A stretch of DNA of 64,000 bases from Chloroflexota bacterium (GTDB taxonomy: Bacteria; Chloroflexota; UBA11872). The notes beneath the pieces are model-generated. The model saw only the letters and a program-made list of their open reading frames with translations, had not been told where the DNA came from and did not search any database. Numbering within the stretch: the first letter of the stretch is position 1; the number at the start of each line of letters is the position of its first letter. The stretch lies in contig JAJEDE010000007.1 of assembly GCA_022821645.1 (NCBI GenBank), positions 1 to 64,000 of the forward strand, given 5' to 3'. Positions 7,512-64,000 of the stretch are shown here, piece after piece. Made by a program: the position numbers and the translations under genes.

Positions 7512-8969
7512 ATGAGCCAGGATCAGAGCCGCCCCAACGTGCTGCTCATCATCACCGACCAGCAGCGCGGCGACTGCCTCGGCATCGACGGCCACCCCGT
7601 CCTGCAGACGCCCGCCATGGACTGGCTCGGAGCCTCCGGCACCTTCTTTCGCCGCGGCTACTCCGAATCCCCCTCCTGCATCCCCGCCCGCCGCGTCCTC
7701 ATGTCCGGCCGCCCGCCCGACGAGGACGGCATGGTCGGCTTCATGAGCGCCCCCTGGGACCCGCCCGCCACCCTCGCCGGCGAACTCCGCGCCGCTGGCT
7801 ACGAAACCCGCATGGTCGGCAAGCTCCACCTCCATCCAAAGCGCCACCGCTTCGGCTTCGATGTCCTTGAACTCGCCGACTCCACCCGCGCCGACGACAA
7901 CGAATACCTCGACTGGCTCCAAGGCGAATTCCCCCTCGACCGCTGGGCCATGGCCCACGGCGCCACCCCCAACGGCTGGATCGGCCGCCCCAACCACCTC
8001 CCCGAGGAGAAGACCCACACCTTCTGGTGCGTCTCCCGCGCCATCGAATACCTCGAAAAACGCGACCCCTCCTGCCCCTTCTTCCTCAACGTCTCCTTCA
8101 TCGATCCCCATCCCCCGATGACCCCGCCCGACTGGTTCTACGACCGCTACGCCGCCATGGACCTGCCCGAACCCGCAATGGGCGACTGGATGGAACCCTG
8201 GGATGGCCCGCCCCGCGGCATCCCCGCCGAAAAGGGCCCCTACGGTCAGCGCGGCCCCATCGACCCGGACGCCATGCACAACCTGCGCGCCGCCTACTAC
8301 GGCCTGATCAACCACATCGACATGCAACTGAGCCGGCTCTTCCAGTACATGCGCGACAACGGCCTGCTGGAAGAGACCTTCATCGTCTTCGTCAGCGACC
8401 ACGGCGAGATGCTGGGCGACCACCAGATGTACTCCAAGTGCCGCGCCTTCGACGCCTCCGCCCGCGTCCCCTTCCTGGCCCGCGCCCCCCAGCGCATGGG
8501 CTTGCCCCGCGAGGTCGTCTGCGACCAGCCCGTCGGCCTCCAGGACCTCATGCCCACCATCCTCGAAGCCGTTGGCGCGCCCATCCCCGAGTCCGTCAGC
8601 GGCCGCAGCCTGCTCCCACTAATGCGCGGCGAGGACGCCGACTGGCGCCGCTACCTGCACGGCGAGCATTGCGGCATGTACCGCTACATCGACGGCAATC
8701 ACTGGCTGGTCGATACGCGCTACAAGTACATCTGGATGAGCCAGACCGGCCGCGAACTCTTCTTCGACCTCCACGAAGACCCGCTCGAGGAGCGCGACCT
8801 GTCAGCCCAAGCCGACCTCACGCCCTGGCGCGAACACCTCATCGAGGTCCTACGCGACCGCCCCGAGGGCTTCACCGACGGCCAGCGCCTGATCCCTGGC
8901 CAACCCCACGAGCACATGATTCCAACCATGGTCCCGCCGGGCATCACCGTGACCCGGCCCAAGCTCTAG
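7512..8969 (+). CDS. Type I sulfatase (485 aa), first of a tandem pair
   Basis: An alkaline-phosphatase-superfamily sulfatase. The N-terminus RPNVLLIITDQQRGD gives metal-binding Asp16 and neighbours. Residues 56-60 CIPAR are the formylglycine signature (C-x-P-x-R), so Cys56 needs conversion to formylglycine. VSDHGEMLGDH near residue 295 gives the second metal-site Asp-His. There is no signal peptide, so it should act in the cytoplasm on imported sulfate esters or related phospho/phosphonate esters. Start ATG at 7512 is chosen at the family N-terminus; the open frame extends upstream through the hairpin repeats. The next gene, 11 bases on, is a close paralogue, indicating tandem duplication. 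Confidence 0.9.
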   Translation: MSQDQSRPNVLLIITDQQRGDCLGIDGHPVLQTPAMDWLGASGTFFRRGYSESPSCIPARRVLMSGRPPDEDGMVGFMSAPWDPPATLAGELRAAGYETRMVGKLHLHPKRHRFGFDVLELADSTRADDNEYLDWLQGEFPLDRWAMAHGATPNGWIGRPNHLPEEKTHTFWCVSRAIEYLEKRDPSCPFFLNVSFIDPHPPMTPPDWFYDRYAAMDLPEPAMGDWMEPWDGPPRGIPAEKGPYGQRGPIDPDAMHNLRAAYYGLINHIDMQLSRLFQYMRDNGLLEETFIVFVSDHGEMLGDHQMYSKCRAFDASARVPFLARAPQRMGLPREVVCDQPVGLQDLMPTILEAVGAPIPESVSGRSLLPLMRGEDADWRRYLHGEHCGMYRYIDGNHWLVDTRYKYIWMSQTGRELFFDLHEDPLEERDLSAQADLTPWREHLIEVLRDRPEGFTDGQRLIPGQPHEHMIPTMVPPGITVTRPKL

Positions 8970-8980
8970 CGGGGCGCCTG

Positions 8981-10501
8981 ATGCCCGACAAGCAACCCCA
9001 CATCCTGCTGATCATGACCGATCAGCAGCGCAACGACGCGCTCGGCATCGCCGACCATCCCGTCCTGCAGACGCCCAGCATGGACTGGATCGGAGCCTCC
9101 GGCACCCGCTTCCGCCGCGGCTACACCGAGTCCCCCGCCTGCATTCCCGCCCGGCGCGTTCTCATGTCCGGCCAGGCGCCCTGCGTCAACGGCATGGTCG
9201 GCATGACCGGCGGCATGCCCTGGGATCCTCCGGCCACGCTTGCCGGCGAACTCGGCAACGCGGGCTACGAGACCCGCATGATCGGCAAGATCCACCTCTT
9301 CCCCAACCGCCGCCGCTTCGGCTTCGACGCCATGGAGCTGGCGGACAGCACCCGCGGGACGGACAACGACTACCTGGACTGGTTGCACGGCGAGATCCCC
9401 CTCAACCGCTGGGCCATGGCCCACGGCGCAACCCCCAACGGCTGGATCGGCCGACCCAACCACCTGCCTGAGGAACTCACCCACACCTTCTGGTGCGTCT
9501 CCCGCGCCATCAATTTCCTCGAGCGTCGCGACCCCAGCCAGCCCTTCTTCCTCAACCTCTCCTTCATCGACCCCCATCCCCCCTTCACCCCGCCCAAGTT
9601 CTTCTTTGACCGCTACGCGGAGATGGATCTGCCGCAGCCGGTCATCGGCGACTGGGTAGAACCCTGGAAGGGCCCCGATCGCGGCATCGACCCGGAGGTT
9701 CGTTCCGAGCGGCGCTTCTACCGCCGCGGCATGAATCTCGATCCGCTGCCCATGCACTACATGCGCGCCGCCTACTTCGGAATGATCAACCACATCGACA
9801 TGCAACTCAGCCGCCTCTTTCAGTACATGCGCGACAAGAGCCTGCTGGAGGACACGCTGATTGTCTTCGTCAGCGACCACGGCGAGATGCTGGGCGACCA
9901 CTACCACATCGCCAAGAGCTTCCCCTTCGAAGCCTCGGCTGGGATTCCTTTCCTCATCAACCCGCCCGAGGCCTGGGGCGCCCCGCGTGCCCAGGTTCTC
10001 GACCAGCCCGTGGGACTCCAGGACGTCATGCCCACCCTGATCGACGCTGCCGGCGCTGAAATCCCGTCCTCGGTCACCGGCCGCAGCCTCGTGCCGCTGG
10101 TCCGCGGCGAGTCGCCCGCCTGGCGCGACGCGCTGCACCTCGAATACGCCAGCGGCGCCGGATCTGAACTGGCGCTCGGAACGACGCAAGACGAACCCCC
10201 GCCCGCCGAACAGCAATGGGCCCGCGGCTGGCACGCCCTGGTCAACGACAGCCACAAGTACATCTGGGAAAGCCAGACCGGTCAGGAACTGCTATTCGAT
10301 GTCCGCAACGACCCATTTGAGGAACGCGACCTCTCCTCCCAGACCGACCTCGGCCCCTGGCGTCAGCGCCTGATCGAGCAGCTCCGCGACCGCCCCGAAG
10401 GCTTCACCGACGGCTCACGGCTCATCACCGGCCGCCCCCACGATCACATGGTCCCCGGACTCGCCCCACCCAACTACAACCCCGGCCCTCCCGTCTACTA
10501 G
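8981..10501 (+). CDS. Type I sulfatase (506 aa), second of a tandem pair
   Basis: A close paralogue of the preceding gene along its whole length (for example HATPNGWIGRPNHLPEE-like core, INHIDMQLSRLFQYMRD, VSDHGEMLGDH). Metal ligands come from MTDQQRND; residues 54-58 CIPAR form the formylglycine site. It has a short insertion before the C-terminal KYIWESQTGQELLFD block. No signal peptide is present. Its TAG stop at 10499-10501 shares the tetranucleotide CTAG with the stop of the convergent MFS gene. It probably works with the adjacent transporter on related substrates; specificity cannot be read from the sequence. Confidence 0.9.
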   Translation: MPDKQPHILLIMTDQQRNDALGIADHPVLQTPSMDWIGASGTRFRRGYTESPACIPARRVLMSGQAPCVNGMVGMTGGMPWDPPATLAGELGNAGYETRMIGKIHLFPNRRRFGFDAMELADSTRGTDNDYLDWLHGEIPLNRWAMAHGATPNGWIGRPNHLPEELTHTFWCVSRAINFLERRDPSQPFFLNLSFIDPHPPFTPPKFFFDRYAEMDLPQPVIGDWVEPWKGPDRGIDPEVRSERRFYRRGMNLDPLPMHYMRAAYFGMINHIDMQLSRLFQYMRDKSLLEDTLIVFVSDHGEMLGDHYHIAKSFPFEASAGIPFLINPPEAWGAPRAQVLDQPVGLQDVMPTLIDAAGAEIPSSVTGRSLVPLVRGESPAWRDALHLEYASGAGSELALGTTQDEPPPAEQQWARGWHALVNDSHKYIWESQTGQELLFDVRNDPFEERDLSSQTDLGPWRQRLIEQLRDRPEGFTDGSRLITGRPHDHMVPGLAPPNYNPGPPVY

Positions 10502-11730
10502 CGGCGTCCCCCCGCCATCCGCACCGCCTCCGGCCGCCGCCGCAACGCCAGCATCGAAACAACCCCAAACACCGGCCCCACCGCCAACAGCCCAAACGCC
10601 GCCGCCCAATGCGGCCCGCCATCCACCAGCAGCCCAACCAGGTGAATACTCACAAACGTCAGCAGAAACCCAATGCAGATCTGCATGGTCAACGCGGTAC
10701 CCACGTACTGGGACGGGCTCAATTCCGAGATCGCCGCCGAGAACTGTGCCGAGTCCGCAATCACGCTGAACCCCCAAACCAACATGACCGGCGCCAGCAC
10801 CCACAGCGGCGCATCCGCTAGCAACGCCACAGCAATCGCCGCGCTCCCGCTCACCGCCATCGCCCCAGCCGCCGTCACCGACCGCCCCACCCGGTCGGCA
10901 ATCCAGCCTCCGGCCACTGCTCCACCCCCACCAACCGCAATCACCGCAAACGCCAACCCCGCCGCCAACTCCGGCTCCCCGCCTTCCCGTGCCACGACCT
11001 GCGCCAGAAACAGCGGTATCCAGGCCCACATCGCATAGAGTTCCCACTGATGGCCCAAGTACCCGAGCGTCGCCAGCCGTAGCCCCGGCGCGCGCACGAT
11101 CTCAAGCGCGAACCGAGGATTGAACCGAGCCGCCGGCGCCGCAAACGGCCCCTGCCGAACCCCGCCCAGCACCAGCAGTCCCGCCACCATCGCCAGCCCC
11201 GCCGTAACCAGCACCACCGGCCGCCATGACGCATCCAGCAACGCCCGAACCAGGTGAGGGCTCGCCGATCCAATGGTCAGCGCGCCCACGATCAGACTCA
11301 ACGCTAGCCCCCGACTACGACGGGTCCAAGTGGCGGCCAGCTTCAAACCTGGTGGATACACACCCGCCAGAAACGCTCCAGTCAGGAAACGCAGGACCGC
11401 TCCGTCAAGCGGGCCAGTGGCAATCACGGCAAGACCGGCAGTCGTCAGGGCCGCGCCGGCGGCACTGAGTGCGAAGAGTCGCGACGCGTCGAAGCGATCG
11501 GGAATGTTCAGAACGCCGCTCACCAGCGTTCCAGCTACGAATCCCAGCTGCACGGCCAGCGTCAGCCATGCGGCCGCTCCAGCCGTGAGCCGCCACTCAG
11601 TTTGGATCAGCGGCGCTACCGCGGCCGCGCTGAACCATGGCGCCAGCGCCAGCAACTCGGCCAGCGTCAGCAAGCCCAGACTGCGCCACCGTCGGACGCC
11701 GTCCTCGGCCGCAGGCAAGACCCTGGTCAT
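10498..11730 (-). CDS. MFS transporter (410 aa)
   Basis: A 12-helix major facilitator. Helix-rich sequence throughout, with a cytoplasmic basic loop after helix 2-3 and a conserved motif-A-like GGWIADRVGRSVTAAG in the second half. The first half contains GVYPPGLKLAATWTRRSRG. It is an inner-membrane secondary carrier; the substrate is unknown but the convergent sulfatase pair makes an organic sulfate, sugar or organic acid attractive. The ATG at 11730 is the family start. It ends tail to tail with the second sulfatase, sharing CTAG. The next gene on this strand upstream is the binding protein, separated by a strong terminator. Confidence 0.8.
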   Translation of the reverse strand: MTRVLPAAEDGVRRWRSLGLLTLAELLALAPWFSAAAVAPLIQTEWRLTAGAAAWLTLAVQLGFVAGTLVSGVLNIPDRFDASRLFALSAAGAALTTAGLAVIATGPLDGAVLRFLTGAFLAGVYPPGLKLAATWTRRSRGLALSLIVGALTIGSASPHLVRALLDASWRPVVLVTAGLAMVAGLLVLGGVRQGPFAAPAARFNPRFALEIVRAPGLRLATLGYLGHQWELYAMWAWIPLFLAQVVAREGGEPELAAGLAFAVIAVGGGGAVAGGWIADRVGRSVTAAGAMAVSGSAAIAVALLADAPLWVLAPVMLVWGFSVIADSAQFSAAISELSPSQYVGTALTMQICIGFLLTFVSIHLVGLLVDGGPHWAAAFGLLAVGPVFGVVSMLALRRRPEAVRMAGGRR

Positions 11731-11783
11731 TCTCAGACTCTACCCAGCATCGGGATCCGCGTTCGTCGGGTGCTCAAAGCGAA

Positions 11784-11811
11784 CGAGGCCCCCGCCGAAG
11801 CGGGGGCCTCG
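11784..11811 (-). terminator. Strong GC hairpin after the solute-binding protein gene
   Basis: Perfect 12-bp stem (11784-11795 with 11800-11811) and a 4-base loop, starting 20 bases after the stop of the binding-protein gene on the minus strand. The following T-run is short (TTCGCTTTG), so termination may be only partial. Confidence 0.6.
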
Positions 11812-11831
11812 CTCAATGGACGGGTCGAGCG

Positions 11832-13481
11832 CTAGCGATTGACGTCACCCATTGACAGGCCGTCCTGGAACTTCTTGAGAAGCCCATTGACCTGTTCGCT
11901 TGCCTTCTCCAGCGATTCCTGAGCCGACGCTTCGCCGACCAGCGCGCGGTCCATCTGTGGTCGCCAGAGGGCGCGGATCTCGGAGTAGAAGCCGCCCGGC
12001 ACGTACCACTGCATCGCCCGCAGATTCGGGTTGGCAATGTACTCGTACAGGTGGTGCATGCCTTCCGGCGGCGCGGCGTTCGCCACGGGTAGGTCCGCAA
12101 CTTCCTTCCACAGCGGCAGGTGACCACGGTCAATGGAGACGCGACCCTGCACTTCCGGTCCGGCGAGGAAGTAGACCCATTCAACCGCCTGTTCTTCCAC
12201 GCCGGTCACAGTGGCCGTACCGGCCACGATGTGCGGCTGGTCGTTCCACTCAAAGTTGGCGTGGTTGGTGTTCTCGCCCCAGGGCATCGGCCCCAGTGAC
12301 CACTCGAAGCGGTCGGAGATGCGTGGCGCACGGAAACCGGTGCTGTAAACAACTCCACCAATCTCAACGGCCTGCTTGCCCGCCGAGAAGGGGTCGCCAA
12401 ACTCGGCCGACAGGTCGCCGCGCTGCTCAGGCGTGTAGGACACGTTGTCCTTGTGGATGTAATCCACAATGTCCTGCCAGCCCTGCCAGCCGTCGTTCAG
12501 CGGCGGACCCCAGATCTGGGCACCGTCGGGTCCGTCGACGCGTGCCTGGCCATTGTTGTATCCGTACATCTGCGGGAAGACCTGGAACTGCTCGGATCGC
12601 GTGGCGCGAATTCCAAATATGTCGTTCTCCGGGTCGCGCAGCTTTCGCATTTCTTCCAGCAGGTCGCTGTAGCGCATGCCTTCGCTTGGCTGGTTCGCTC
12701 CCGCCGCCTCAAACAGCGTGACGTTGTAGGCGAGTCCCCCAATTGCGCCTTGGTACGGCATTCCGTACAAGGGCCCCTGCAGACGGGTGGAGTCGTACGG
12801 GTAGCTCTGGTCCATGTTGTCCGAGTAAATGTCGGGCTGGAACCAGTAATTCGACGGGTCGTAGCCGTCCTTCTTGGCCAGGATGTCGTCGATGTTCAGC
12901 CACACGCCCGCACCCTGGAACTGCTGGAAGGATACGCCGTTGAGCAGGTTCGACTCGGAGAGCGTGCCGGCCACCGCTTCCACGGCGATCTTCTCGTAGT
13001 AGATGTGGTCCTGCGGGATGAACTTGACCTTGATGTCAGGTCGCTCAACCGCAAATCGCTCGATTGCCCACTGCATGGCCGCGCCACGTGGACCCGAGGT
13101 GTGGTCGGTGGCGTGCTCGATCTTGACGGTGCGAGTTACAGGCGGCGCCTCCTGAATCACTACCTTCTCGACGACCTTCTCGACCTCGACCGTCTGCGTT
13201 ACGACCTTCTCGACCTCGACGACCTTCTCGACCTCGACCGTCTTCGTGACGACGCGATCGACTTGCTGGGTCACGATCTTCTCGACCGGGACTTCCCTGA
13301 CCTCAGTCTCACGGACGATCTTCTCGACCGGGACTTCCTTGATCACCGTCGTCTCGACCGGGACTTCCTTCGTGACGACCTGCGTCTCACCGCAGGCTGC
13401 CAAGGCTGCCAGTCCGGCAATTCCAGTTGCTCCAGCGGCAGCGCCTCGCAGCATATGCCGTCGTGAAATCAATCGACGCAT
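11832..13481 (-). CDS. ABC transporter solute-binding lipoprotein, family 1, Tat-exported
   Basis: 549 residues. The start ATG at 13481 follows GGGAGG by a few bases. The N-terminus SRRHMLRG is a twin-arginine motif, followed by a hydrophobic stretch and the lipobox LAAC with Cys30. Residues about 35-125 are a Val/Glu/Lys repeat linker (VEKIV, EVPVEK, VEVEKVV) that is characteristic of Chloroflexota binding proteins. The rest is a periplasmic-binding fold of the sugar/oligosaccharide type (PDIKVKFIPQ, GPLYGMPYQGAIGGLAYNV, AVEWVYFLAGPEVQG). It would deliver a carbohydrate to an ABC permease, but no cognate permease genes are adjacent, so it is an orphan here. The nearby sulfatases make a sulfated sugar an appealing guess. 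Confidence 0.88.
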   Translation of the reverse strand: MRRLISRRHMLRGAAAGATGIAGLAALAACGETQVVTKEVPVETTVIKEVPVEKIVRETEVREVPVEKIVTQQVDRVVTKTVEVEKVVEVEKVVTQTVEVEKVVEKVVIQEAPPVTRTVKIEHATDHTSGPRGAAMQWAIERFAVERPDIKVKFIPQDHIYYEKIAVEAVAGTLSESNLLNGVSFQQFQGAGVWLNIDDILAKKDGYDPSNYWFQPDIYSDNMDQSYPYDSTRLQGPLYGMPYQGAIGGLAYNVTLFEAAGANQPSEGMRYSDLLEEMRKLRDPENDIFGIRATRSEQFQVFPQMYGYNNGQARVDGPDGAQIWGPPLNDGWQGWQDIVDYIHKDNVSYTPEQRGDLSAEFGDPFSAGKQAVEIGGVVYSTGFRAPRISDRFEWSLGPMPWGENTNHANFEWNDQPHIVAGTATVTGVEEQAVEWVYFLAGPEVQGRVSIDRGHLPLWKEVADLPVANAAPPEGMHHLYEYIANPNLRAMQWYVPGGFYSEIRALWRPQMDRALVGEASAQESLEKASEQVNGLLKKFQDGLSMGDVNR

Positions 13482-13602
13482 CGGTCCCTCCCTGGTTCCA
13501 GCCGGAGCGCCTTCTGACGCTCGGTGATCCGTCGCGACGCTCACTCTAACGCAGCCGTGAATTTAGCGTCGAACGACCGTCCAGCTAGCCCTGTTTGGCG
13601 GC

Positions 13603-15072
13603 CTACAAGATCGGCTGTGCCAACGTGGCGGGGCGTGGCGGGGGTTCAACAACGTCGGGCCAGGTGTCTCGCGTCGCGACGAGCCAGCGGCCTAGTGCCT
13701 GTCGCGAAAGATCCAGTTGATTCCCGTACTCCGGGTTTGCAATCTGGTTGTGCAGTTCGAGCGGGTCGTCGCGCAGGTCATATAGCTCGTTGCTGTCGTC
13801 CTGCGATTCCACGTACTTCCAGCGCTCGTCCACCCACATCCGCAGCGGATGCAGCGGATCGGTCCAGTTCACCGAGTGAAACTCCGCGACCACGCCCTCG
13901 TTGACCTGGGCGTCGCCGCCACGAATGAGATCTCCAAAGTCGACGCCCTGCAGCACGTCCGCCGGTTGACCTCCACACATGGCGACGATGGTGGGTACGA
14001 GGTCGACTAGTGATACGACCCGAGCCGAACGATGGGCGAACCCAAGCCCGCCGGGTGGTCGAACAACAAGCGGAATCCGCACCAGGTCCTCGTACATCAC
14101 CGCGCCTTTGGCTGCCAGCCCGTGATGCCCGAGCATCTCCCCGTGGTCCGAGAAGAAGATAAAGAGTGTGTTGTCCCACTTGTTGGCATCCAGCAACGCC
14201 GTAACCAGTCGGCCAACCAGGTGGTCCACATACGAAACGGCGCCCCAATAGGCCGCCCGCATCGACCGGACCTCGTCATCAGTCCAGTCCGATATGACCT
14301 TCAGCTGCTCGGCGTCGCGGTGGGCGACCAGCGCCGGGCCGGCCGGGTCGTGCCGGTTGGCCGGCAGGTCCATGTCGTCCGGGTCGTACATGGAATGGAA
14401 AGGCTCTGGCGAGGTGTAGGGCGGGTGCGGTTCGTGACAGGAATAGACCAGACAGAATGGCTGATCGTCGCCCTTGCGGCTGCGCACCCAGTCCGTGGCG
14501 TGGTCCATGTGGAAGAAGGACGGATGCTGGGCGAGCGGAAGCAACGATGGTCCGACGCTGGTCTTCCGGTTGTAGACGGCGGGATCCGGCTCGAACCCAT
14601 GCTCCTTGCCGCCGATTTCCACGCCGATCTGCTGTGTCAGCCGCAGGACCTCATTCTGCGCACGCCGGTCCACGTCGATATCTCCCGAACGAGAGCAGAA
14701 GTCGGGAAATCCCGGCCGCGCCGCCCCGCTGCCCAGGTGCCACTTGCCCGCATAGCCGCGTAGGTACCCAAGATCTCCGAGATAGTCGCCCAGGTTGCGC
14801 ACGCCTTCCGGATAGCGCATGAGATCGCATCCCGGCCGCATCTGGTGATTGGCCACCATGCCGTTGGTATGCGGATACAACCCCGAAAGCGTGGCCATGC
14901 GTGACGGCGAACAGATGGGATAGGGACAGTAGGCTCGGTCGAACAGCGCCCCGTCGCTGGCGATCCAGTCGAGGTGTGGTGTCCGAATACCCTCCACGCC
15001 GCCGGCCGCAATGGTGTCGGCGTGCTGCTGATCGCTGATGAACAGAACGACGTTCGGACGAGTGCCGGGCAT
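13603..15072 (-). CDS. Type I sulfatase (489 aa)
   Basis: RPNVVLFISDQQHAD supplies the first metal ligands and CSPSR at residues 54-58 is the canonical formylglycine motif, Cys54 being the nucleophile precursor. Conserved blocks GYAGKWHLG and FFSDHGEMLGHHG support an active enzyme. There is no signal peptide. It lies 58 bases upstream of the binding-protein gene on the same strand, so it may be co-transcribed with it; the product would then be a sulfatase-plus-uptake unit. It is not a close paralogue of the 7512/8981 pair. Confidence 0.9.
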   Translation of the reverse strand: MPGTRPNVVLFISDQQHADTIAAGGVEGIRTPHLDWIASDGALFDRAYCPYPICSPSRMATLSGLYPHTNGMVANHQMRPGCDLMRYPEGVRNLGDYLGDLGYLRGYAGKWHLGSGAARPGFPDFCSRSGDIDVDRRAQNEVLRLTQQIGVEIGGKEHGFEPDPAVYNRKTSVGPSLLPLAQHPSFFHMDHATDWVRSRKGDDQPFCLVYSCHEPHPPYTSPEPFHSMYDPDDMDLPANRHDPAGPALVAHRDAEQLKVISDWTDDEVRSMRAAYWGAVSYVDHLVGRLVTALLDANKWDNTLFIFFSDHGEMLGHHGLAAKGAVMYEDLVRIPLVVRPPGGLGFAHRSARVVSLVDLVPTIVAMCGGQPADVLQGVDFGDLIRGGDAQVNEGVVAEFHSVNWTDPLHPLRMWVDERWKYVESQDDSNELYDLRDDPLELHNQIANPEYGNQLDLSRQALGRWLVATRDTWPDVVEPPPRPATLAQPIL

Positions 15073-15134
15073 CGGTCAGCCCCCTTCCGGGACAACGCTG
15101 GCGAGCGTATCGAGGTCTTTGGTCTGAGCTGGCG

Positions 15135-15569
15135 TTAAGCCGCATCTCCTCGGGCGCGTCGCCAAAGACGCAGTCCACTCGCTGCCGCCACTGCAATCAG
15201 CGGCGGGTTGATGAACGGCCAGCTTAGCGTGGACGAGGATTCCGGATCCGCTGCCCAGTTCTGATCGAACCACTTCCAGAAGAACAAAATGCACAGGATG
15301 ATCGACGCGTAGAGCAGCACGTTGGTTTCCAGGTACTCGCGGGTCACGCCGGATGTAGCACTGGAGTCGCTCCGGTTCAGCGCCAACTTGAAATGCAGGT
15401 TCGCCGACAGCATCAGGATCAGCGCGACTGCCCAGAACCAATTCAGCACGTTCCAGACCGGATAGCTGCTCGAGCCGTCGTGGTAGAGCGGCGTAACCAC
15501 AAAGTGAACGCCCACGGCTATCGCCAGCGCAACGATATACGCTCCCGCAACCATTCTGACGAGCTGCAC
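15135..15569 (-). CDS. Small four-helix membrane protein (144 aa)
   Basis: I do not recognise the family. Four hydrophobic helices are visible: VAGAYIVALAIAVGVHFVV, NVLNWFWAVALILMLSANL, NVLLYASIILCILFFWKWF and WPFINPPLIAVAAASGLRL, with a basic C-terminal end. The GTG start at 15569 has GAGG eight bases upstream; an ATG five codons later is possible. It lies between a sulfatase and an alpha/beta hydrolase on the same strand. Function unknown. Confidence 0.6.
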   Translation of the reverse strand: MQLVRMVAGAYIVALAIAVGVHFVVTPLYHDGSSSYPVWNVLNWFWAVALILMLSANLHFKLALNRSDSSATSGVTREYLETNVLLYASIILCILFFWKWFDQNWAADPESSSTLSWPFINPPLIAVAAASGLRLWRRARGDAA

Positions 15570-15622
15570 GTTCCCTACCTCGCGACCAACCGGAACGTCC
15601 GTTGGGACGGCTGCCGGCGGGA

Positions 15623-16300
15623 TTATATGACTGACCCGATCCAGCGAGCCGTGGTTGCTGCTGCTTCGGCCAGCACGTCGTCCGCAGTGCGCCCGGAGCG
15701 TTTCAAGACCTTGAAGCTGTGATCCGCTCCCCGGAGGACGTGCAGGCGGACCGGGACCGGCACGCCGGCTATGGCCGCGCGAAGCAGGTCGAGCCGAGCC
15801 ATCCGGTCGCGGTCGCCCGATAGGAACAAGAGCGGCGCTGCGCATTCGCCCAGGTGTTGGGCCCGCGCTATGTCCGGCCGTCCAGCCTGGTGCAGCGGGA
15901 ACGCGAAGGCCACGATCCCTGCAAGGTCATTGAGCAGACCTCGGGCGGCGGCCAGCGTCGTCATCCGACCGCTCATCGAATGCCCGCCGGCGAAGAGGGG
16001 GAGATCGGGCGCGACTTTCCGGGCTGAGACGACCGCTGCTTGCACTGCGGTTAGGCGCACGCGCTCGCCGTCCATGCCGCCGCGGCCGGCTTCCGAATAG
16101 GGATAGTTGTAGCGAAAAGTGGCGACGCCGGCAGTAGCCAGCGCTCGGGCCAGCCGCTCCATGAACGGGTGGCGAGCGTTCGTGCCCGCCCCGTGTCCAA
16201 GCACCAGCAGCGCCCGCGCTGCGGGTGGGCGTAACAGCAGGGACGACACGCGCCCGCGCTCGGGCAAGGCCTCGAACGAACCGGTGATCCCAGACGTCAT
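15623..16300 (-). CDS. Alpha/beta-hydrolase of the KANL3/Tex30-like group
   Basis: 225 residues with LLVLGHGAGTNARHPFMERLA as oxyanion-hole region, FRYNYPY, and the nucleophile elbow GGHSMSGRM with Ser as nucleophile near residue 107. FLSGDRDRMARL gives a likely acid Asp and GADHSFKVLKRSG the histidine. These blocks match small bacterial dienelactone-hydrolase-like/KANL3-Tex30 proteins. No signal peptide, so cytoplasmic. Substrate unknown. Its 5' end faces the parS pair. Confidence 0.75.
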   Translation of the reverse strand: MTSGITGSFEALPERGRVSSLLLRPPAARALLVLGHGAGTNARHPFMERLARALATAGVATFRYNYPYSEAGRGGMDGERVRLTAVQAAVVSARKVAPDLPLFAGGHSMSGRMTTLAAARGLLNDLAGIVAFAFPLHQAGRPDIARAQHLGECAAPLLFLSGDRDRMARLDLLRAAIAGVPVPVRLHVLRGADHSFKVLKRSGRTADDVLAEAAATTARWIGSVI

Positions 16301-16345
16301 CGGGCGTCGGGTTATCCGACAGTTCGGAGGACGTTGGCGAGTGAG

Positions 16346-16361
16346 TGTTTCACGTGAAACA
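16346..16361. other. parS: parS site 1
   Basis: TGTTTCACGTGAAACA, an exact 16-bp match to the canonical chromosomal ParB-binding parS palindrome. It lies between the divergent start of the hydrolase and the end of the ankyrin gene. ParB loads here and spreads, and ParA then segregates the origin region. No parA or parB gene is in the window. Confidence 0.93.
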
Positions 16362-16406
16362 TCGGCAGGGCGCGATCCGGCACTTCAGCGGACGCCAGCA
16401 AATGGA

Positions 16407-16422
16407 TGTTTCACGTGAAACA
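16407..16422. other. parS: parS site 2
   Basis: Second exact copy of TGTTTCACGTGAAACA, starting 61 bases after the first and 3 bases beyond the ankyrin gene's stop codon. Two exact copies this close are not expected by chance. Confidence 0.93.
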
Positions 16423-16425
16423 TCC

Positions 16426-17820
16426 TCAGCGGGGATTCTCCGGCAGATCGGCGGACGCCAGCCCACCTTGGCGGCGAAGCGCCTGCGCCACGTCGTCGCA
16501 TCCCGAAGCCGCGGCGCGGTCGAGGTGTGTCTGGCCATCGGCGCCAATCCGGTTCACATCGGCATCGACCGCCGCCAGCAGGTCCACGGTCCGCGGGTAG
16601 TCGCCTTTGGGGTCGCGAAAGTTGCCGGCACCCCAAATTGCGCCGCCCAGCGGCGTGCCGCCGAAATCGTTGGTGACTTCCAGCGATGGGTTATGCGCGA
16701 GTAACACCTCCACGATGTCCGCGTATCCCCGCACCGCGGCGCGGTCCAGCGGCGTGCCGTTGTCGTCGCCGCGAGCGTCCACCGGAAATCCCACCTCTAG
16801 CATCAGCGCGACCCCCCGGCAGTTGTTATTCCAGGCAGCGTCGCAGATGGCGCGGGTTTCTTCGGCGACGAGCGATGCGACGAGTCCAGGGTGCGCATCC
16901 ACCAGCGTCTGCGCACCAGCGCGGTTGTCGGTCCAGGCTGCATGAATCAGTTGCTCCGCCGGATTGGCCCGCGTTAGCAACTGCTCAACGAACGCGTCAT
17001 GGCCTCTGGTGCTGGCATACGGTAGCGGGCGCATCCCTACACCCATCCGGTAGATGTACATGTGCCCCCCGGGTGGTCGGTTTGCCATGTGCGGGCCGTG
17101 GTTGCTGCGAAATCGGAGGGCATCTGGGTGCGTCGCCAGCACCCGATCCGCTACGGCAATGTCGCCAAGCGCGCACGCGACATAGATGTCCGGCGTGGCC
17201 CCGCGTTCAATGAGCTGTCGACATACGGCCGGTTCATCAATAGCCCACTGGGCTGGTGTCGCGCCGTGGTCAATGTCCCGCATATCAACGTCGGCGCCGC
17301 GATCAACCAGCAGATCCACGATTGCCGGCGTCCGTGCCATGTGCAGCGGCGATGCCCCGTCGCGTCCGCGCTCGTTCACGCAGGCAGGCCGCTCGTCAAC
17401 CAGACGTCGAAGCTTGGCCGCATCGCCAAGATTCGCAGCAGCATGCGCGTCAACCCGCAGGCCGCGGCTGACAAAGTCGACGAACAGCTCGGTCATCACC
17501 GGCGAACCATCGGCGCGCCGCTCTTTCACCCACAGCTCCACGTGCTCTCCATCAAGCACGCCCGAACCGCCCAGCTCCCATCCCGACCGGGCATTCACGT
17601 CGGCGCCGTCCTCCGCCAGCACCCGCATTATGTCCGCATCCCCGCGCGAACTGGCCTCAACAAGCGCCGGCGCATCGAAATACCCCCACGGCTGGTCAAT
17701 GTTCGCGCGCAACCACGAATCCGAAGCCAGCAGCGCCCGCATCCCGGCCGAGTCGCCGCTGCGTAGAACACTAAGGAATCCGAGCCTGACTGACTCGCGA
17801 TTGGATTGGTCGTCGTTCAT
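16426..17820 (-). CDS. Ankyrin-repeat protein (464 aa)
   Basis: Multiple ankyrin repeats of about 33 residues are visible: DAPALVEASSRGDADIMRVL with DGADVNAR, DGASPLHMARTPAIVDLLVD with RGADVDMRD, NGTPLDRAAVRGYADIVEVL, and DGQTHLDRAAASGCDDVAQ. There is no signal peptide or enzymatic domain. Such proteins mediate protein-protein contacts; in host-associated bacteria they are sometimes effectors, but free-living bacteria have them too. The stop codon lies directly beside parS site 2, so transcription of this gene runs into the partition sites. Start ATG 17820 is the first Met of the repeat-bearing frame. Confidence 0.8.
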   Translation of the reverse strand: MNDDQSNRESVRLGFLSVLRSGDSAGMRALLASDSWLRANIDQPWGYFDAPALVEASSRGDADIMRVLAEDGADVNARSGWELGGSGVLDGEHVELWVKERRADGSPVMTELFVDFVSRGLRVDAHAAANLGDAAKLRRLVDERPACVNERGRDGASPLHMARTPAIVDLLVDRGADVDMRDIDHGATPAQWAIDEPAVCRQLIERGATPDIYVACALGDIAVADRVLATHPDALRFRSNHGPHMANRPPGGHMYIYRMGVGMRPLPYASTRGHDAFVEQLLTRANPAEQLIHAAWTDNRAGAQTLVDAHPGLVASLVAEETRAICDAAWNNNCRGVALMLEVGFPVDARGDDNGTPLDRAAVRGYADIVEVLLAHNPSLEVTNDFGGTPLGGAIWGAGNFRDPKGDYPRTVDLLAAVDADVNRIGADGQTHLDRAAASGCDDVAQALRRQGGLASADLPENPR

Positions 17821-17914
17821 TGCAACGCCGCCATAGCGAGTTCTCCGCTCTGCGGACTCAAGCGATGCGTCCGCAGCAGCCAGGCCATGCTTTACTAGTG
17901 CCGACAGGCACTGG

Positions 17915-18295
17915 TCATAGCAGTCGCTCCACTGCTTCGGCTGTCGCGACCGCTCTCTCGTACTCCTGCTCGGTAACTGGTCTGGCCGTTCCGGGGTACC
18001 TGGTGATCACCGCGAATGGTGTAAGTCCGGCAGCCTCGCGAATGTCTGCCGAAACCGATTCTCCATATTCGGCAAGCAACGACAAGAGCTGTGCTAGGTC
18101 GTGGACGTAGGGAAACTCGATGCCACGTCGAATCAGCACCGCCCTGAGTGCTTTCTCGGCACGTTGCTGAGCCTCAAAGCACAGGTCTTCGAGATTGGCA
18201 TTCGGAACGCGACTCTTGGCCAACCCGAGATTGCTTTTTGCTCGGTTCAGCCACTCCCTTGGATCATCCGGAGCGAAGCGTTCAGGGGGCCTCAT
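17915..18295 (-). CDS. HEPN-domain protein of an MNT-HEPN pair
   Basis: 126 residues. PREWLNRAKSNLGLAKSRV, LCFEAQQRAEKALRAVLIRRGIEFPYVHDL and a C-terminal ARPVTEQEYERAVATAEAV form the alpha-helical HEPN fold. HEPN proteins of this type are potential RNases whose activity is blocked by the partner nucleotidyltransferase, often by AMPylation. The ATG at 18295 overlaps the upstream MNT gene by 14 bases; no clear Shine-Dalgarno is present, so coupling is likely. The pair forms a probable type VII-like toxin-antitoxin module. Confidence 0.82.
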   Translation of the reverse strand: MRPPERFAPDDPREWLNRAKSNLGLAKSRVPNANLEDLCFEAQQRAEKALRAVLIRRGIEFPYVHDLAQLLSLLAEYGESVSADIREAAGLTPFAVITRYPGTARPVTEQEYERAVATAEAVERLL

Positions 18296-18596
18296 AAACG
18301 ACCGTTCCGTCTCGCAACGCGGGCTTGAACACGAGCGCATGTGAGTCCTTGTATCGCTCGACGTCCTCGGCATTGGCGACGACTGCATCCACGGCGACTC
18401 CGACCCCGTGCAGCCGTTTGTAGATGCGCGACATAAGGCTGATCGGGTCGCTTGCGTCCTTAATGATTAGCAAGTCCACGTCGCTGTTTCGACTCATGCG
18501 TCCCTGGGCGGCGGACCCGAAGAGAATGATCCGCTCGGGCTGGGCTACCTCAACGACGCGCTGAATGACGTCGTCCAACACTGTCTGGTCAAGCAT
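18282..18596 (-). CDS. Minimal nucleotidyltransferase (MNT) partner of HEPN
   Basis: 104 residues of the DNA-polymerase-beta-like superfamily. The signature IILFGSAAQGRMSRNSDVDL gives Gly27-Ser28 and the catalytic Asp39 and Asp41. It is the size of a stand-alone MNT. In MNT-HEPN pairs it acts as antitoxin, modifying or binding the HEPN toxin. It precedes the HEPN gene and overlaps it. The neighbouring parS region and lack of mobile-element genes give no sign of recent transfer. Confidence 0.85.
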   Translation of the reverse strand: MLDQTVLDDVIQRVVEVAQPERIILFGSAAQGRMSRNSDVDLLIIKDASDPISLMSRIYKRLHGVGVAVDAVVANAEDVERYKDSHALVFKPALRDGTVVYEAP

Positions 18597-18823
18597 CGGA
18601 CGCAGCTTGGGTTGACGGCTTCGACGGGGGGTCGTGCATCGACACGCGTTCCTACCGTCCGGTCACCCATTTTGGCAGGTCGTGATTGACCGCGGCCGTA
18701 CACATCGCGAGATTCACCCTCTGGACAGGCTAGTGGCTGGCTGAACCTGGCGAACACAAGAGACCCGTGTCGGAGCTGGGGCTTGCGGCAGGCTGGCGCC
18801 TTTGCTGAGTGCTCCTGCTCACC

Positions 18824-20293
18824 TCAGTACGGCCGCCGTCCCCACGGCTGGGGGTTCGGCCGACCAAATCTGGTCGTCGCCTCTTCGTAGTCGCTGCCGC
18901 GCAGGTCATCCTCGTCAAGTGCCGCGTGACCGCTATGCGATCGGACGATTTGCACGAGGGCGGCGCGCATCCGCCCAAGCTCATCGTCATAGGCAGGGTC
19001 GTTGGCCAGGTTGGTAAGTTCGGTGGGGTCGGTTTCACGGTCAAACAGCTGCTCAAATCGGCCGTTCGCCCACCAGATGTACTTGTAGCGCTCCTCGATC
19101 AGCGCCAGTTGGCGATTCTCCTGATTGCCGAAGACGCCGTGGACCGGCTCCCCTGGGTGGCGACCGGCGATCACGTCGGCCAGGGGCGGCGCCGTGCCGA
19201 CATCCGACGGAATCTCGGCGCCGGCGGCGCTGAGCATGAACGGCATCAACTGCTCCTGGCTGGTGAGGGAGTCGATGTGGCGGGAAGGCCCCAGGTCTAA
19301 CTCCCGCCGCACTGACTCAGGCGCCCACACGATGAGTGGGACGTGCGTGGACTCCTCGTAGAAATTGCTCTTGAAGAAGAGGTTGTGGTCGCCCATCAGG
19401 TCGCCGTGATCGGAGTTGAAGACGACGACCGTGTCGTCGCGCAGACCCAGCCCGTCCAGCACGCCCAGCAGGCGCCCGATGCAGTGGTCCAGGTGGGTGA
19501 TGTTGCCGTAGTAGAACGCGCGCGCCAGCGCAATCTGCTCGGACCCCAGCGAGTGCCAGGTGTACTGAAAGTTCGCCCGCCGAAGCTGCGGTGGGCTCTC
19601 CGTCATGTCCTTGCCGTTGCGCCACGGCTCTGGAACGTCGTCGGGGGAGTAGAGCCGGTCGTATGGACGCGGCGGGTCGTAAGCCGAGTGCGGCTTGGTG
19701 AAGCTGCAATGCAGGTAGAAGGGGCGCTCAGGCTCGGTTGCCTGGTGTCGGTTGAGAAAGCTGATCGCCTCGTTGGCGGTCCAGGTGGATACGTAGTGGG
19801 ATTCGGGGACCGGCGATGGCGCGGCAAAGATGTCGTTGTTACCGACGCCGTGGGCACGCTCCAGGCCGGCCCAGGGCGTCGTTTGCAGCCAGTGGTGGTA
19901 GTCGTCACCCTCCGGCATGCGGCCTTCTTCGCAGATCACGGTGCTCTCGAAGCCGTTCAAGGCGCGCTGGTCCGGCGTGAAGTGAAACTTGCCGGCGCCA
20001 TGGGTGCGATAGCCGTTCCGCGTTAGCACGCCTGGCAGCGTGTTATCCGGGTTCATCGGGTTCCGCGAGTTGCCAAATACCCCGTGCGCCCACGGATGTT
20101 GTCCCGTCATCCACGTCGTCCGTGCCGCCACGCACACCGGCGTCTCGCTGTAGCAGCGCGTCAGGTAATACCCATCCCTAGCCAGCGCGTCCAACGTCGG
20201 CGTCTGCAACCACCCCTGCCCGGCCACGCCCAAGGCGTCGCCCCGCTGCTGATCGGTCGTAATAAACAGAATGTTCGGTCGCTGCGCGGGCAT
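18824..20293 (-). CDS. Type I sulfatase with CVAAR motif (489 aa)
   Basis: RPNILFITTDQQRGD supplies metal ligands. The formylglycine site at residues 54-58 reads CVAAR: the usual proline is alanine, which the C-x-(P/A)-x-R form of the motif tolerates for some modifying enzymes. FNSDHGDLMGDH gives the second metal-site residues. Further blocks GAGKFHFTPDQ and CSFTKPHSAYDPP match family members. There is no signal peptide. It stands alone on the minus strand, divergent from the DUF2071 gene. Activity therefore depends on whether the host's maturation enzyme accepts Ala at the third position. Confidence 0.85.
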   Translation of the reverse strand: MPAQRPNILFITTDQQRGDALGVAGQGWLQTPTLDALARDGYYLTRCYSETPVCVAARTTWMTGQHPWAHGVFGNSRNPMNPDNTLPGVLTRNGYRTHGAGKFHFTPDQRALNGFESTVICEEGRMPEGDDYHHWLQTTPWAGLERAHGVGNNDIFAAPSPVPESHYVSTWTANEAISFLNRHQATEPERPFYLHCSFTKPHSAYDPPRPYDRLYSPDDVPEPWRNGKDMTESPPQLRRANFQYTWHSLGSEQIALARAFYYGNITHLDHCIGRLLGVLDGLGLRDDTVVVFNSDHGDLMGDHNLFFKSNFYEESTHVPLIVWAPESVRRELDLGPSRHIDSLTSQEQLMPFMLSAAGAEIPSDVGTAPPLADVIAGRHPGEPVHGVFGNQENRQLALIEERYKYIWWANGRFEQLFDRETDPTELTNLANDPAYDDELGRMRAALVQIVRSHSGHAALDEDDLRGSDYEEATTRFGRPNPQPWGRRPY

Positions 20294-20430
20294 GTGAGGG
20301 ATCCCATAGAGTTGGCGCCGACGGCATTCTGATTGATAGGCCCGACCCTGGCGAACATTGAAGGCCGTCGCGCTACGCTGGATTCGCCGCAGGCCACGAA
20401 CTCTTACATCGCCTTTCCGGTCATTTCGCC

Positions 20431-21150
20431 ATGCCTGAACGAGTCTTCCTCACCGCCGAATGGCGTGACCTGGCGCTCCTCAACTACGAGATCGAGCTGG
20501 ACGTGCTGCGGCCTCATGTGCCCGCGGGAACCGAGCTTGATCTATGGCAGGGCCGCTGCTTTGTCAGCGTGGTTGGGTTCCGGTTTCTGAAGACGCGGCT
20601 GATGGGGATGCCGGTTCCGTTTCACTCCAACTTCCTGGAGGTGAACCTCCGGTTCTACGTGCGGCGCGAGGTTGAAGGCGAGGTGCGGCGCGGGGTGGTG
20701 TTCATCAAGGAGATCGTTCCGCGGCGCGCAATCGCCTGGGTAGCGCGGGTGGTCTACAACGAGAACTACGTTGCGCTGCCGATGCGCCATCAGGTTGACG
20801 GCGTCTCGGCGCGGTACGAGTGGCGGTTCGAGGGCATGTGGAACCGACTGGCGCTCTCGGGACTGGGTGACTGGCGGACTCAAGACCCGGCGTCCGAGGC
20901 CGCGTTCATCACGGAGCACTACTGGGGCTACGCGGTTCAGCGGGATGGCTCGACGCTCGAATACCAGGTCGAGCACCCGCGCTGGCGGGTAGCGCCGGCG
21001 GCCGAGGTCGAGTTGGCGTGCGACGTCGGGCGACTGTATGGCGACGAATTTGCCGAAGCGCTGAGCCGCGAGCCGGCATCGGCCTTCCTGGCGGATGGAT
21101 CGGAGATCGTCGTGCGGCGCGGTCGGCAATTGACCAATCGCGACGCCTGA
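20431..21150 (+). CDS. DUF2071 / YqjF-like protein (239 aa)
   Basis: FLTAEWRDLALLNYEIELDV, LRPHVPAGTELDLWQGRCFV, SVVGFRFLKTRLMGMPVPFH, NFLEVNLRFYVRREV and VFIKEIVPRRAIAWVARVVYNENY match DUF2071 end to end at the normal length. The fold is related to acetoacetate decarboxylase-like proteins, but no biochemical role is established. The C-terminal YQVEHPRWRV segment is also typical. The next gene downstream is a sulfatase 71 bases away on the same strand, so co-transcription is possible. Confidence 0.85.
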   Translation: MPERVFLTAEWRDLALLNYEIELDVLRPHVPAGTELDLWQGRCFVSVVGFRFLKTRLMGMPVPFHSNFLEVNLRFYVRREVEGEVRRGVVFIKEIVPRRAIAWVARVVYNENYVALPMRHQVDGVSARYEWRFEGMWNRLALSGLGDWRTQDPASEAAFITEHYWGYAVQRDGSTLEYQVEHPRWRVAPAAEVELACDVGRLYGDEFAEALSREPASAFLADGSEIVVRRGRQLTNRDA

Positions 21151-21221
21151 CGAGCCGCTCGGCAGTCACGCAAGGGTCCGCGCTACGCTGAGCCGTCCTC
21201 ACATCCACCAGGGCACGGCCC

Positions 21222-22586
21222 ATGCCGCCGAACTTCCTGTTCCTGATTGCCGACGATCACCGGCACGACGCCATCGGGTCGCTGGGCAATCCGGCGGTGC
21301 AGACGCCGACGCTGGACGCCCTGGCCGCCGCCGGTACCGCGCTGAGCAGCACCTACATCATGGGGTCGACGTCGAACGCAGTCTGCATGCCCAGCCGGGC
21401 GATGCTGATGACCGGCCGCTCGCTGTTTCGGGTTTTCGCTCCGAATCCAGAGGGAGTTTCGCCATACCCGATGGATCCGGGGAGCCCCACGTTTCCGCAG
21501 TTGCTTCGCGACGCTGGCTACCGAACCTACGGCGTGGGCAAGTGGCACAACGAGCCGGAACTCTTTGCCCGCAGTTTCGAAGGCGGCGGCAGCATCTTCT
21601 TCGGCGGGATGTCGGACCACGACGCCGTGCCGCTGCACGAGTTTGACCCGGACGGCGATTATCCGCCGGAGGCCATGGCTGTCGGCGACGGCTTCTCGAC
21701 CGAAATGTTCGTCGACAGTGCCATTCAGCTGCTCAGGGAGCATCCCGCCGACCAGCCGTTTTGCATGTACACGGCGTTTACTGCGCCGCACGATCCGCGT
21801 ACGCCGCCACCCGAGTTCGCTGAGATGTACCCGCCCGGGGAAATCGAACTCCCGCCCAACTTCGCCCGAATGCATCCCTTTGACAACGGACACCTGCACG
21901 GGCGCGACGAGTCCCTCGCGGCGCATCCGCGCGACCCGGACGAAATCCGTCAACACATCGCCGACTACTACGGGATGATCAGCCACCTGGATGCGCAGAT
22001 CGGCCGCCTGCTCGATGCACTGGCGGCTTCAGGCCATGCCGACGACACGATCGTGGTCTATACCGCCGACCACGGACTGGCCGTCGGTCAGCACGGCCTG
22101 CTGGGCAAGCAGAACGTCTACGACCACAGCCTGCGTGTCCCGCTGATCATGCGCGGGCCGGGTATCGCCGCGGGACACCGCCTTGAAGGGCTGTGCTACT
22201 TGCACGACGTCTTCCCGACCATCCTCGACCTGGCCGGCGTCCCGGTGCCGGACGGATGCGAAGGGATCAGCCTGCTTCCGGCCCTGAGCGGACGGGATGC
22301 CGGCCTGCGTGACTGCGTCTTCTCGGCATTCCAGCGCAGCCAGGATCTGGATCCCGACGATTCCACCCAGCGCATGGTTCGCCGTGGAAGTCTGAAGTTG
22401 ATCGAGACGCGCAAAGTCGGCCAAACGCATCGTCAGCTATACGATTTGGCGGAAGACCCCTGGGAAACGCGCAATCTGGCGGACAACCCGGCATATTCGG
22501 GTCAGCTGGCCGACATGCAGCGTTTGCTTGCCGGGGAGCGCGTGCGAGTTGGCGATCCGGCGAAGACCAAGACAGGCGAGGAGTAG
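21222..22586 (+). CDS. Type I sulfatase (454 aa)
   Basis: PNFLFLIADDHRHD carries the Asp-Asp metal ligands and CMPSR at residues 55-59 is the formylglycine signature. VVYTADHGLAVGQHGLLGKQNVYDHSLRVP is the usual second metal site and substrate loop region, shown here only in part by TADHGLAVGQHG. It is closest in layout to arylsulfatase/choline-sulfatase-like enzymes, different from the other four sulfatases. No signal peptide. It follows the DUF2071 gene and converges with the amidohydrolase pair. Confidence 0.9.
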   Translation: MPPNFLFLIADDHRHDAIGSLGNPAVQTPTLDALAAAGTALSSTYIMGSTSNAVCMPSRAMLMTGRSLFRVFAPNPEGVSPYPMDPGSPTFPQLLRDAGYRTYGVGKWHNEPELFARSFEGGGSIFFGGMSDHDAVPLHEFDPDGDYPPEAMAVGDGFSTEMFVDSAIQLLREHPADQPFCMYTAFTAPHDPRTPPPEFAEMYPPGEIELPPNFARMHPFDNGHLHGRDESLAAHPRDPDEIRQHIADYYGMISHLDAQIGRLLDALAASGHADDTIVVYTADHGLAVGQHGLLGKQNVYDHSLRVPLIMRGPGIAAGHRLEGLCYLHDVFPTILDLAGVPVPDGCEGISLLPALSGRDAGLRDCVFSAFQRSQDLDPDDSTQRMVRRGSLKLIETRKVGQTHRQLYDLAEDPWETRNLADNPAYSGQLADMQRLLAGERVRVGDPAKTKTGEE

Positions 22587-55576: not shown

Positions 55577-56770
55577 TTAGCGCCCCTCCGAACGGCGACG
55601 AAGGAATGCCGGGATATCCACTTCGCTCGATTCGCGTGAGCGGCTCGAGAAATCGAGTTCGCGAACCACTGGGCTGCTGGAGGGCCGCGAACTGCGGCGT
55701 CTGGTCGGCCGCGCCTCTGCCGTGCCGGTCTGGAACCCTGTCGCGATGACCGTGACCTGGAGACGTCCTTCCATGGCCTCGTCGATTACCGTTCCGAAGA
55801 TGATGTTGGCATTCGGCTCGGCCGCTTTGGCCACGATGTCTGCGGCTTCGTTGACTTCGTGAAGCGTCATGTCCGGGCCACCGGTGAAGTTCAGAAGCAC
55901 CCCGCGCGCGCCGTCCACCGACACGTTGAGCAGGGGACTGTTCAGGGCTTGCTGAATCGCTTCGGTGGCTCGATCCTCGCCCTGGGCCTCACCGATAGCC
56001 ATCAACGCTGTGCCTGACTCGGTCATGACCGCGCGCACATCGTTGAAGTCGAGGTTGATCAAGCCTGGTTGCGTTATCAGGTCGGAGACGCCCTGGATAC
56101 CCTGGCGCAGCACATCGTCGGCCAAGGCAAAGGCCTCGGTTACAGACATTTTCGGGTCGGCGACGGCCAAGAGCTGTTGGTTGGGAATCATGACGAGGGT
56201 GTCAACGCGCTCCTGCAGGTTTCGGAGGCCTTCCTCGGCGTAACGTGCGCGCGTACTTCCCTCGAAATCGAAAGGTCGAGTAACAACACCCACGGTCAAC
56301 GCGCCGGATTCGCGCGCGACGTCGGCGACAACCGGGGCGCCGCCGGTCCCGGTACCGCCGCCCATACCGGCGGCGATGAAAACCATGTCGGCGCCTTCCA
56401 CGGCTTCTCGAATCTCATCCAGCGACTCTTCGGCAGCCTTTTGGCCGAGGGAAGGCTGGCCACCTGAACCAAGGCCGCGCGTGGCTTTGTCGCCTACGCG
56501 GATGCGTGTCGGCGCACTTGAGCGCACCAGCGCCTGCGCGTCGGTGTTGATAGCAATGAACTCGACGCCTTGCACATGTTCTTCGATCATGCGGTCGACG
56601 GCGTTGCTTCCGCCGCCGCCAATGCCAACCACCTTGAGTTCTGCGAGCGAATCGCCACCGACGGGTTGCCTCGCTACGCGTCCCGCCGGTGCCGAATGCG
56701 GCTCACCATCTGCGCCCGTCAGCCGCGTGATTCGACTTCCACCGCGGCCATCACTTTCGGCCATGTCCAC
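55577..56770 (-). CDS. ftsZ: Cell division GTPase FtsZ
   Basis: 397 residues. ELKVVGIGGGGSNAVDRMIE opens the GTPase domain; GGGTGTGG at 137-144 is the tubulin signature; NLDFNDVRAVMTESGTALMA is the T7 loop with catalytic Asp. A linker of about 35 residues leads to the conserved C-terminal peptide VDIPAFLRRRS that binds FtsA. The start at 56770 adds a 38-residue N-terminal tail; Met3 is an alternative start. Upstream lies a 103-base gap from ftsA, the largest in this operon, which may hold an internal promoter (GGGCATAAT, near 56830-56850). Confidence 0.95.
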   Translation of the reverse strand: MDMAESDGRGGSRITRLTGADGEPHSAPAGRVARQPVGGDSLAELKVVGIGGGGSNAVDRMIEEHVQGVEFIAINTDAQALVRSSAPTRIRVGDKATRGLGSGGQPSLGQKAAEESLDEIREAVEGADMVFIAAGMGGGTGTGGAPVVADVARESGALTVGVVTRPFDFEGSTRARYAEEGLRNLQERVDTLVMIPNQQLLAVADPKMSVTEAFALADDVLRQGIQGVSDLITQPGLINLDFNDVRAVMTESGTALMAIGEAQGEDRATEAIQQALNSPLLNVSVDGARGVLLNFTGGPDMTLHEVNEAADIVAKAAEPNANIIFGTVIDEAMEGRLQVTVIATGFQTGTAEARPTRRRSSRPSSSPVVRELDFSSRSRESSEVDIPAFLRRRSEGR

Positions 56771-63506: not shown

Positions 63507-64000
63507 GTCCGTGCGGTACGCGGAGGGACTCGGAGGTGAGCGAAGACGCGGCTCATCACACGGGCGAACGTAGGCGATGCGACGTGAGCGCCGAAGAACG
63601 CTGCCTGCGGACGTTCGATGACAACCAGAGCCAGGACCCGCGGCAGTTCAAGTGGACCGAATCCCACATACGACGCTATCGAGGTGTCTTCGAGGAAGCG
63701 ACCGCTCGACGCGATTTCCGATGTCCCAGTCTTGCCGGCGGTTCGATAGCCGGGGATGCGGGCCAGATTGTTAAACACGCCGGATTCCGCCGCCTCCATC
63801 ATCTTGAGCAGCGTCTGGGCTGTTTCGCGTGAAATGACCCGTCGAATCGGCTGTGACTCGATCGTCTCGCGGCGACCGTCCACCTGAGTAACGGCACGCG
63901 CCACGTGCGGTCGCATCATCACCCCATCGTTCGCGATAGCCCCGACGGCGGTGGCCAATTGGAGTGGTGTGACCGATATCCCCTGGCCGAAGGAATTGGA
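63503..64000 (-). CDS. ftsI: Septal penicillin-binding protein (FtsI/PBP), C-terminal part
   Basis: The last 165 residues of a class B penicillin-binding protein, cut by the right edge. SNSFGQGISVTPLQLATAVG and AIANDGVMMRPHVAR are typical, and the KTG box is AGKTGTSEI. IASYVGFGPLELPRVLALVV follows. The SxxK and SxN motifs lie outside the window. It is the transpeptidase partner of FtsW and would be the first gene seen of this dcw operon. Confidence 0.92.
   Translation of the reverse strand, partial: SNSFGQGISVTPLQLATAVGAIANDGVMMRPHVARAVTQVDGRRETIESQPIRRVISRETAQTLLKMMEAAESGVFNNLARIPGYRTAGKTGTSEIASSGRFLEDTSIASYVGFGPLELPRVLALVVIERPQAAFFGAHVASPTFARVMSRVFAHLRVPPRTART

Follow-up and report, generated by a model that had tools for sequence, protein, structure and literature searches.

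A pair of perfect parS sites in a Chloroflexota bacterium as a probable part of a lineage-specific, scattered parS set

CTP-dependent loading of ParB clamps at parS and the recruitment of SMC by ParB are established for other ParB proteins. Bacillus subtilis, which carries eight parS sites over ~0.75 Mb, is a known case of both scattered arrays and SMC loading (PMC8357415). Streptomyces coelicolor and Listeria innocua have arrays with 22 sites near the origin (PMC5815017), while the system of Streptococcus pneumoniae is described as incomplete, its parB being an orphan and its four sites lying near oriC; origin-domain parS sites are taken to be those within 20% of the chromosome around oriC (PMC7022226). 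Scattered parS sites are said to occur in only a few lineages, Bacilli among them, and how and why a bacterial centromere goes from one site to many is an open question (PMC5815017, PMC8357415). Our literature search on parS in Chloroflexi/Chloroflexota found nothing relevant.

The Chloroflexota system described here resembles B. subtilis Spo0J/Soj in its parS consensus, its canonical ParB domains, its many sites over a wide region and the presence of an SMC gene. It differs in having up to 22 sites, which in the genome studied are spread over at least ~1 Mb of its 3.55 Mb, and in having at least one site (the pair analyzed below) that is not placed near the origin. Moreover, parB lies beside dnaA with parA elsewhere, and ParB carries serine at position 201 and lacks the ParA-binding motif. 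The S. coelicolor and L. innocua arrays are alike in site number, but their lineages are unrelated, and the array here arises in a single family in which the other genus carries 1-3 sites. As in the orphan ParB-parS system of S. pneumoniae, ParB-parS may be partly uncoupled from ParA; unlike in that system, a ParA-type gene is present, at an inferred distance of ~0.25 Mb from dnaA.

The window that we analyzed is a stretch of 64,000 nucleotides from the 82-kb contig C21 of a draft assembly (G000; 3.55 Mb, 28 contigs, 7% contamination). A motif scan identified two exact matches to the 16-bp palindrome TGTTTCACGTGAAACA with starts 61 bp apart (Table 1), confirming the two mismatch-free copies reported by a sequence-only reading of the window. 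Dinucleotide shuffles gave 0.13 matches to this motif, even with three mismatches allowed. Both copies fall within the 125-bp spacer (16301-16425) between an ankyrin-repeat gene and an alpha/beta hydrolase gene, the position that the same reading had given, and the second copy ends 3 bp ahead of the ankyrin stop codon. A third match, at 63821 with three mismatches, was not convincing as parS. The tandem repeat around the pair has a unit of 61-63 bp, and each of the two gaps between its ~25-bp elements holds one parS. Since a related genome (G011) has just one parS at the same spot, the doubling is local to G000: the window pair represents a single conserved site that the imperfect tandem repeat has doubled. 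Similar local pairs occur in congeners, at C33:7499/7551 (52-bp spacing) and C54:5606/7009 in G011, and at C5:46303/47711 in G006.

Table 1. Features of the window around the parS pair and the ftsZ marker.
Feature	Position in window	Strand	Details
parS site 1, TGTTTCACGTGAAACA	16346..16361		flanks GAG..TCG; exact match; orthologous single parS in G011 and G008
parS site 2, TGTTTCACGTGAAACA	16407..16422		flanks GGA..TCC; exact match; second copy in imperfect tandem repeat
Imperfect tandem repeat	16314..16462		~25-bp element x3 (16314, 16375, 16438), ATCCGACAGTTCGGAGGACGTTGG and variants; direct reading, alignment
alpha/beta hydrolase gene	15623..16300	-	PF20408; downstream neighbor of the parS pair
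Ankyrin-repeat gene	16426..17820	-	Ank; upstream neighbor of the parS pair; conserved in relatives
ftsZ	55577..56632	-	named by recognizing its translation; orthologues located in relatives

Several other genes in the window were noted. Beside the ankyrin gene, overlapping genes on the minus strand (17915-18596) encode HEPN (PF05168) and MNT-type nucleotidyltransferase proteins, likely a HEPN-MNT toxin-antitoxin pair. Inspection of translations by eye revealed five sulfatase-like genes within 15 kb (7512-22586), and similar genes lie on contigs C17, C20 and C1. The window ftsZ served as a marker for placing the window contig in relatives and is no part of the parS system; second ftsZ copies in the relatives are 51-60% identical to it.

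Across the whole 3.55-Mb assembly, the 16-bp palindrome occurs in 17 exact copies spread over 11 contigs, with no copy at one mismatch and one at two, while an independent-base model at the genome's GC content predicts ~0.00008 exact copies. Seventeen copies against ~0.0001 expected are not a product of chance. Fifteen of the 17 lie outside called genes, although 79% of positions are inside genes (P=7e-9). The small tandem repeat that holds the window pair could suggest that a mobile element or REP-like repeat carrying a parS spread the copies. Against this, the flanks of the 17 sites are unrelated to one another, with no common sequence past the ~20-bp palindrome, and the sites are orthologous between species; we consider such spread extremely unlikely. 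The unrelated flanks refute it genome-wide, and it is valid just for the local 61-63 bp duplication. Over 104 crown-clade sites from nine species, the palindrome extends to the 20-bp sequence RATGTTTCACGTGAAACATY: position -1 is A in 94% of half-sites and A or G in all with one exception, and position -2 is A or G in every half-site.

We counted parS sites in thirteen genomes of the genus, in the sister genus and in other genomes of the phylum. Crown species of the genus have 5-22 exact sites. On the deep branches, G002 has two and G003 (76% complete) has none. Genomes of the sister genus carry 1-3 sites, for the most part next to parB, and 0-2 were counted in other genomes of the phylum. We then gathered the sites of nine crown species with their surroundings and clustered them by flanking sequence. 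Most crown sites lie at the same locus in several species: nine location families are present in six to eight of the nine species, with the families near proS, thrC and tyrS and one on C10 each reaching eight. Decayed orthologues with one base changed are found near gyrB in G004 (TGTTCCACGTGAAACA) and G007 (TGTTTCGCGTGAAACA). Given the 17 exact copies, their intergenic placement and this orthologous conservation, the window pair is, as judged from sequence, number and conservation, genuine parS.

The window site itself is present in three of the nine crown species. G011 (C121) and G008 (C223) each have one exact parS at the corresponding spot, flanked by the same pair of genes, and the order of the hydrolase and ankyrin genes is kept in G004, G005, G007, G008 and G011. 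In G005 and G007 both genes are there, with a spacer ~125 bp shorter and no parS; the site is likewise not found in G004. G000 and G008/G011 fall in different sub-clades of the ParB tree, so most of the crown probably inherited the window site from a common ancestor, with several later losses; that it was gained twice independently at this spot is less likely. Loss of orthologous sites is frequent, the window site being absent from G004, G005 and G007, so that none of the sites is essential on its own.

The sequence-only reading had proposed to look for dnaA, parAB and GC skew in the full genome. The search located dnaA on contig C13, directly followed by the only ParB-family gene in G000; the possibility that the genome lacks ParB, which would have undercut the reading, is thereby set aside. 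The encoded protein has the ParB_N, HTH_ParB and ParB_C domains (PF02195, PF17762, PF23552), a GERRWRAA CTPase motif and arginine at position 173, and it aligns with solved ParB and Spo0J structures. GC skew was too weak and of mixed sign to place contigs. Three DnaA-box-like 9-mers (TGTGGATAA/G; 0-1 mismatch, 20-21 bp spacing) lie between dnaA and parB, and oriC is for this reason most likely located there. The interval forms a compact putative oriC. A ParA-type ATPase gene lies on C10, not beside parB, and is followed by an FtsZ paralogue (C10:30384 onwards) distinct from the window ftsZ; an SMC gene is located at C12:142811. The window, on C21, has no parAB nearby, as the reading had said; the reading had called this unusual, yet it is ordinary here, where most of the 17 sites are far from parB.

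We placed the sites relative to this origin through relatives. On the 535-kb contig C16 of G004, dnaA lies at 79 kb, parS sites at 47, 138, 204 and 261 kb, and a one-mismatch site at 490 kb, close to gyrB. We used the contig ends of G004 and G007 to chain G000 contigs: C18 to C5, C5 with the dnaA region, C12 to C24 through smc, then C10-C7-C16 and C16-C6-C15, the last joins being weaker. The resulting chain (C26-C12-C24-C18-C5-C13-C10-C7-C16-C6-C15) spans ~1.44 Mb, or 41% of the genome, contains dnaA-parB and carries 14 of the 17 sites. With the window pair counted once, this excess gives a binomial P=0.0002, which is indicative only, as the chain was built partly from site-bearing contigs. 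The distances come to roughly 0.3-0.6 Mb to either side of dnaA, an approximate figure, as gene order differs between species. These placements support a parS set that as a whole appears origin-centered, at distances inferred via relatives with differing gene order, and its span of 41% is wider than the 20% used to delimit origin-domain sites (PMC7022226).

Off this chain lie a single site on C8 and, as the main exception, the window pair on C21. The reading had taken two exact parS sites as a marker of the origin domain, with the pair close to oriC in an origin-proximal centromere. That most G000 sites are origin-centered speaks for this idea. The evidence on the window itself speaks against it: dnaA and parB are on C13, and the block to which the window belongs (C21 joined to C23, then C27) could not be connected with the dnaA chain through the relatives examined. 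The G004 and G007 counterparts of these contigs are free of parS. In G002, the only single-contig congener, ftsZ lies 1.05 Mb, the folP/murF region 0.99 Mb and eno 0.85 Mb from dnaA, where the maximum possible distance is 1.5 Mb. Gene order in G002 is rearranged, with proS 939 kb from dnaA as against 31 kb in G004; we rejected it as a scaffold and treat its distances as weak evidence. Overall, an origin-domain position of the window is not supported and seems unlikely. Because parS sites are scattered widely in this genus, the presence of two is no sign that a locus lies near the origin.

ParB of the crown species differs from its relatives at the DNA interface. In Caulobacter crescentus ParB, the parS interface includes R173 and G201, which have been described as absolutely conserved among extant ParB orthologues (PMC7383237). 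Position 201 is serine in all 11 crown ParBs and glycine in G002, G003, six ParBs from g2/the sister genus and other outgroups; every one of a further 30 ParB/Noc proteins that allowed scoring has glycine or arginine there. Position 184 is lysine in 10 of the 11 crown proteins. Ser201 could be neutral, because deep mutational scanning found serine at 201 to be compatible with parS-specific ParB (PMC7383237). A second change concerns the conserved N-terminal motif by which ParB binds ParA (PMC12462528). As read from predicted start codons (the open frame upstream of the G000 start is two codons), a GLGRGL-type motif is missing from the 11 crown ParBs and G002 or survives there in degenerate form, and an ALGRGL-type sequence is present in G003 and g2/the sister genus. 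The order on the ParB tree is loss of this motif before Ser201 and the parS expansion (crown node support 71).

These substitutions raise the possibility that ParB in this clade is drifting towards Noc, with sites that are Noc-type or regulatory (nucleoid occlusion, transcription) and not centromeric. Lys184 and Ser201 count as permissive states or as intermediates between ParB and Noc (PMC7383237), the Noc profile TIGR04285 scores 189 bits (under its 315 cut-off), and the scatter of the sites resembles the layout of Noc sites. Noc and its NBS sites share with this system the ParB fold, scattered sites and lysine at 184. The two part ways at the specificity residues, which are Q173 and R201 in Noc and R173 and S201 here, with the R173 required for parS retained. 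Furthermore, the parS cores are perfect, G000 encodes one ParB-family protein only, and the NBS sequence TATTTCCCGGGAAATA was not found within two mismatches in the six crown genomes tested. We rejected Noc sites and a dual-specificity ParB on that last result, and we regard a Noc-type or regulatory role as improbable.

Instead, we consider it highly probable that the window pair is authentic parS bound by the single ParB of this bacterium, and that it belongs to a lineage-specific scattered set of 17 sites lying mostly on the ~1.4-Mb chain around oriC. Our analysis directly establishes the motif, its number, intergenic placement and orthologous conservation, the domains and residues of ParB, and the SMC and ParA genes. 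From these we infer ParB binding and SMC loading at the sites and any change in ParA dependence; the scattered array probably loads SMC and depends less on ParA. ParB would load on each parS as a CTP-dependent clamp and spread a short distance from it, making each scattered site an independent point of nucleation and SMC loading. A large origin-centered region would then be condensed as a multi-site, distributed centromere and not from one focus, with its coupling to ParA probably weakened. The window pair would be one such loading site, present in at least three species and doubled by the short tandem repeat. More tentatively, and with less than even confidence, we suggest that the ParB-parS system was rebuilt stepwise: the ParA-binding motif was lost first, and Ser201 and Lys184 were then gained at the contact surface with parS while parS rose from 1-3 to up to 22 conserved, scattered, near-perfect 20-bp sites. 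Such a course would have replaced a single centromere pulled by ParA with a distributed array that loads SMC independently of ParA.

For the window itself the lesson is modest, in that two perfect parS sites are no proof of origin proximity. What is new is the lineage-wide pattern, in which sister species have 1-3 sites and crown species 5-22, of which most sit at orthologous loci. Both states, together with intermediates, occur in one family, such that gain, loss and decay of orthologous sites can be followed, and matching changes are seen in ParB, at a DNA-contact residue reported to be invariant and in a lost ParA-binding motif. The expansion of a bacterial centromere from one site to many is therefore testable in this family by comparative genomics and simple binding assays.
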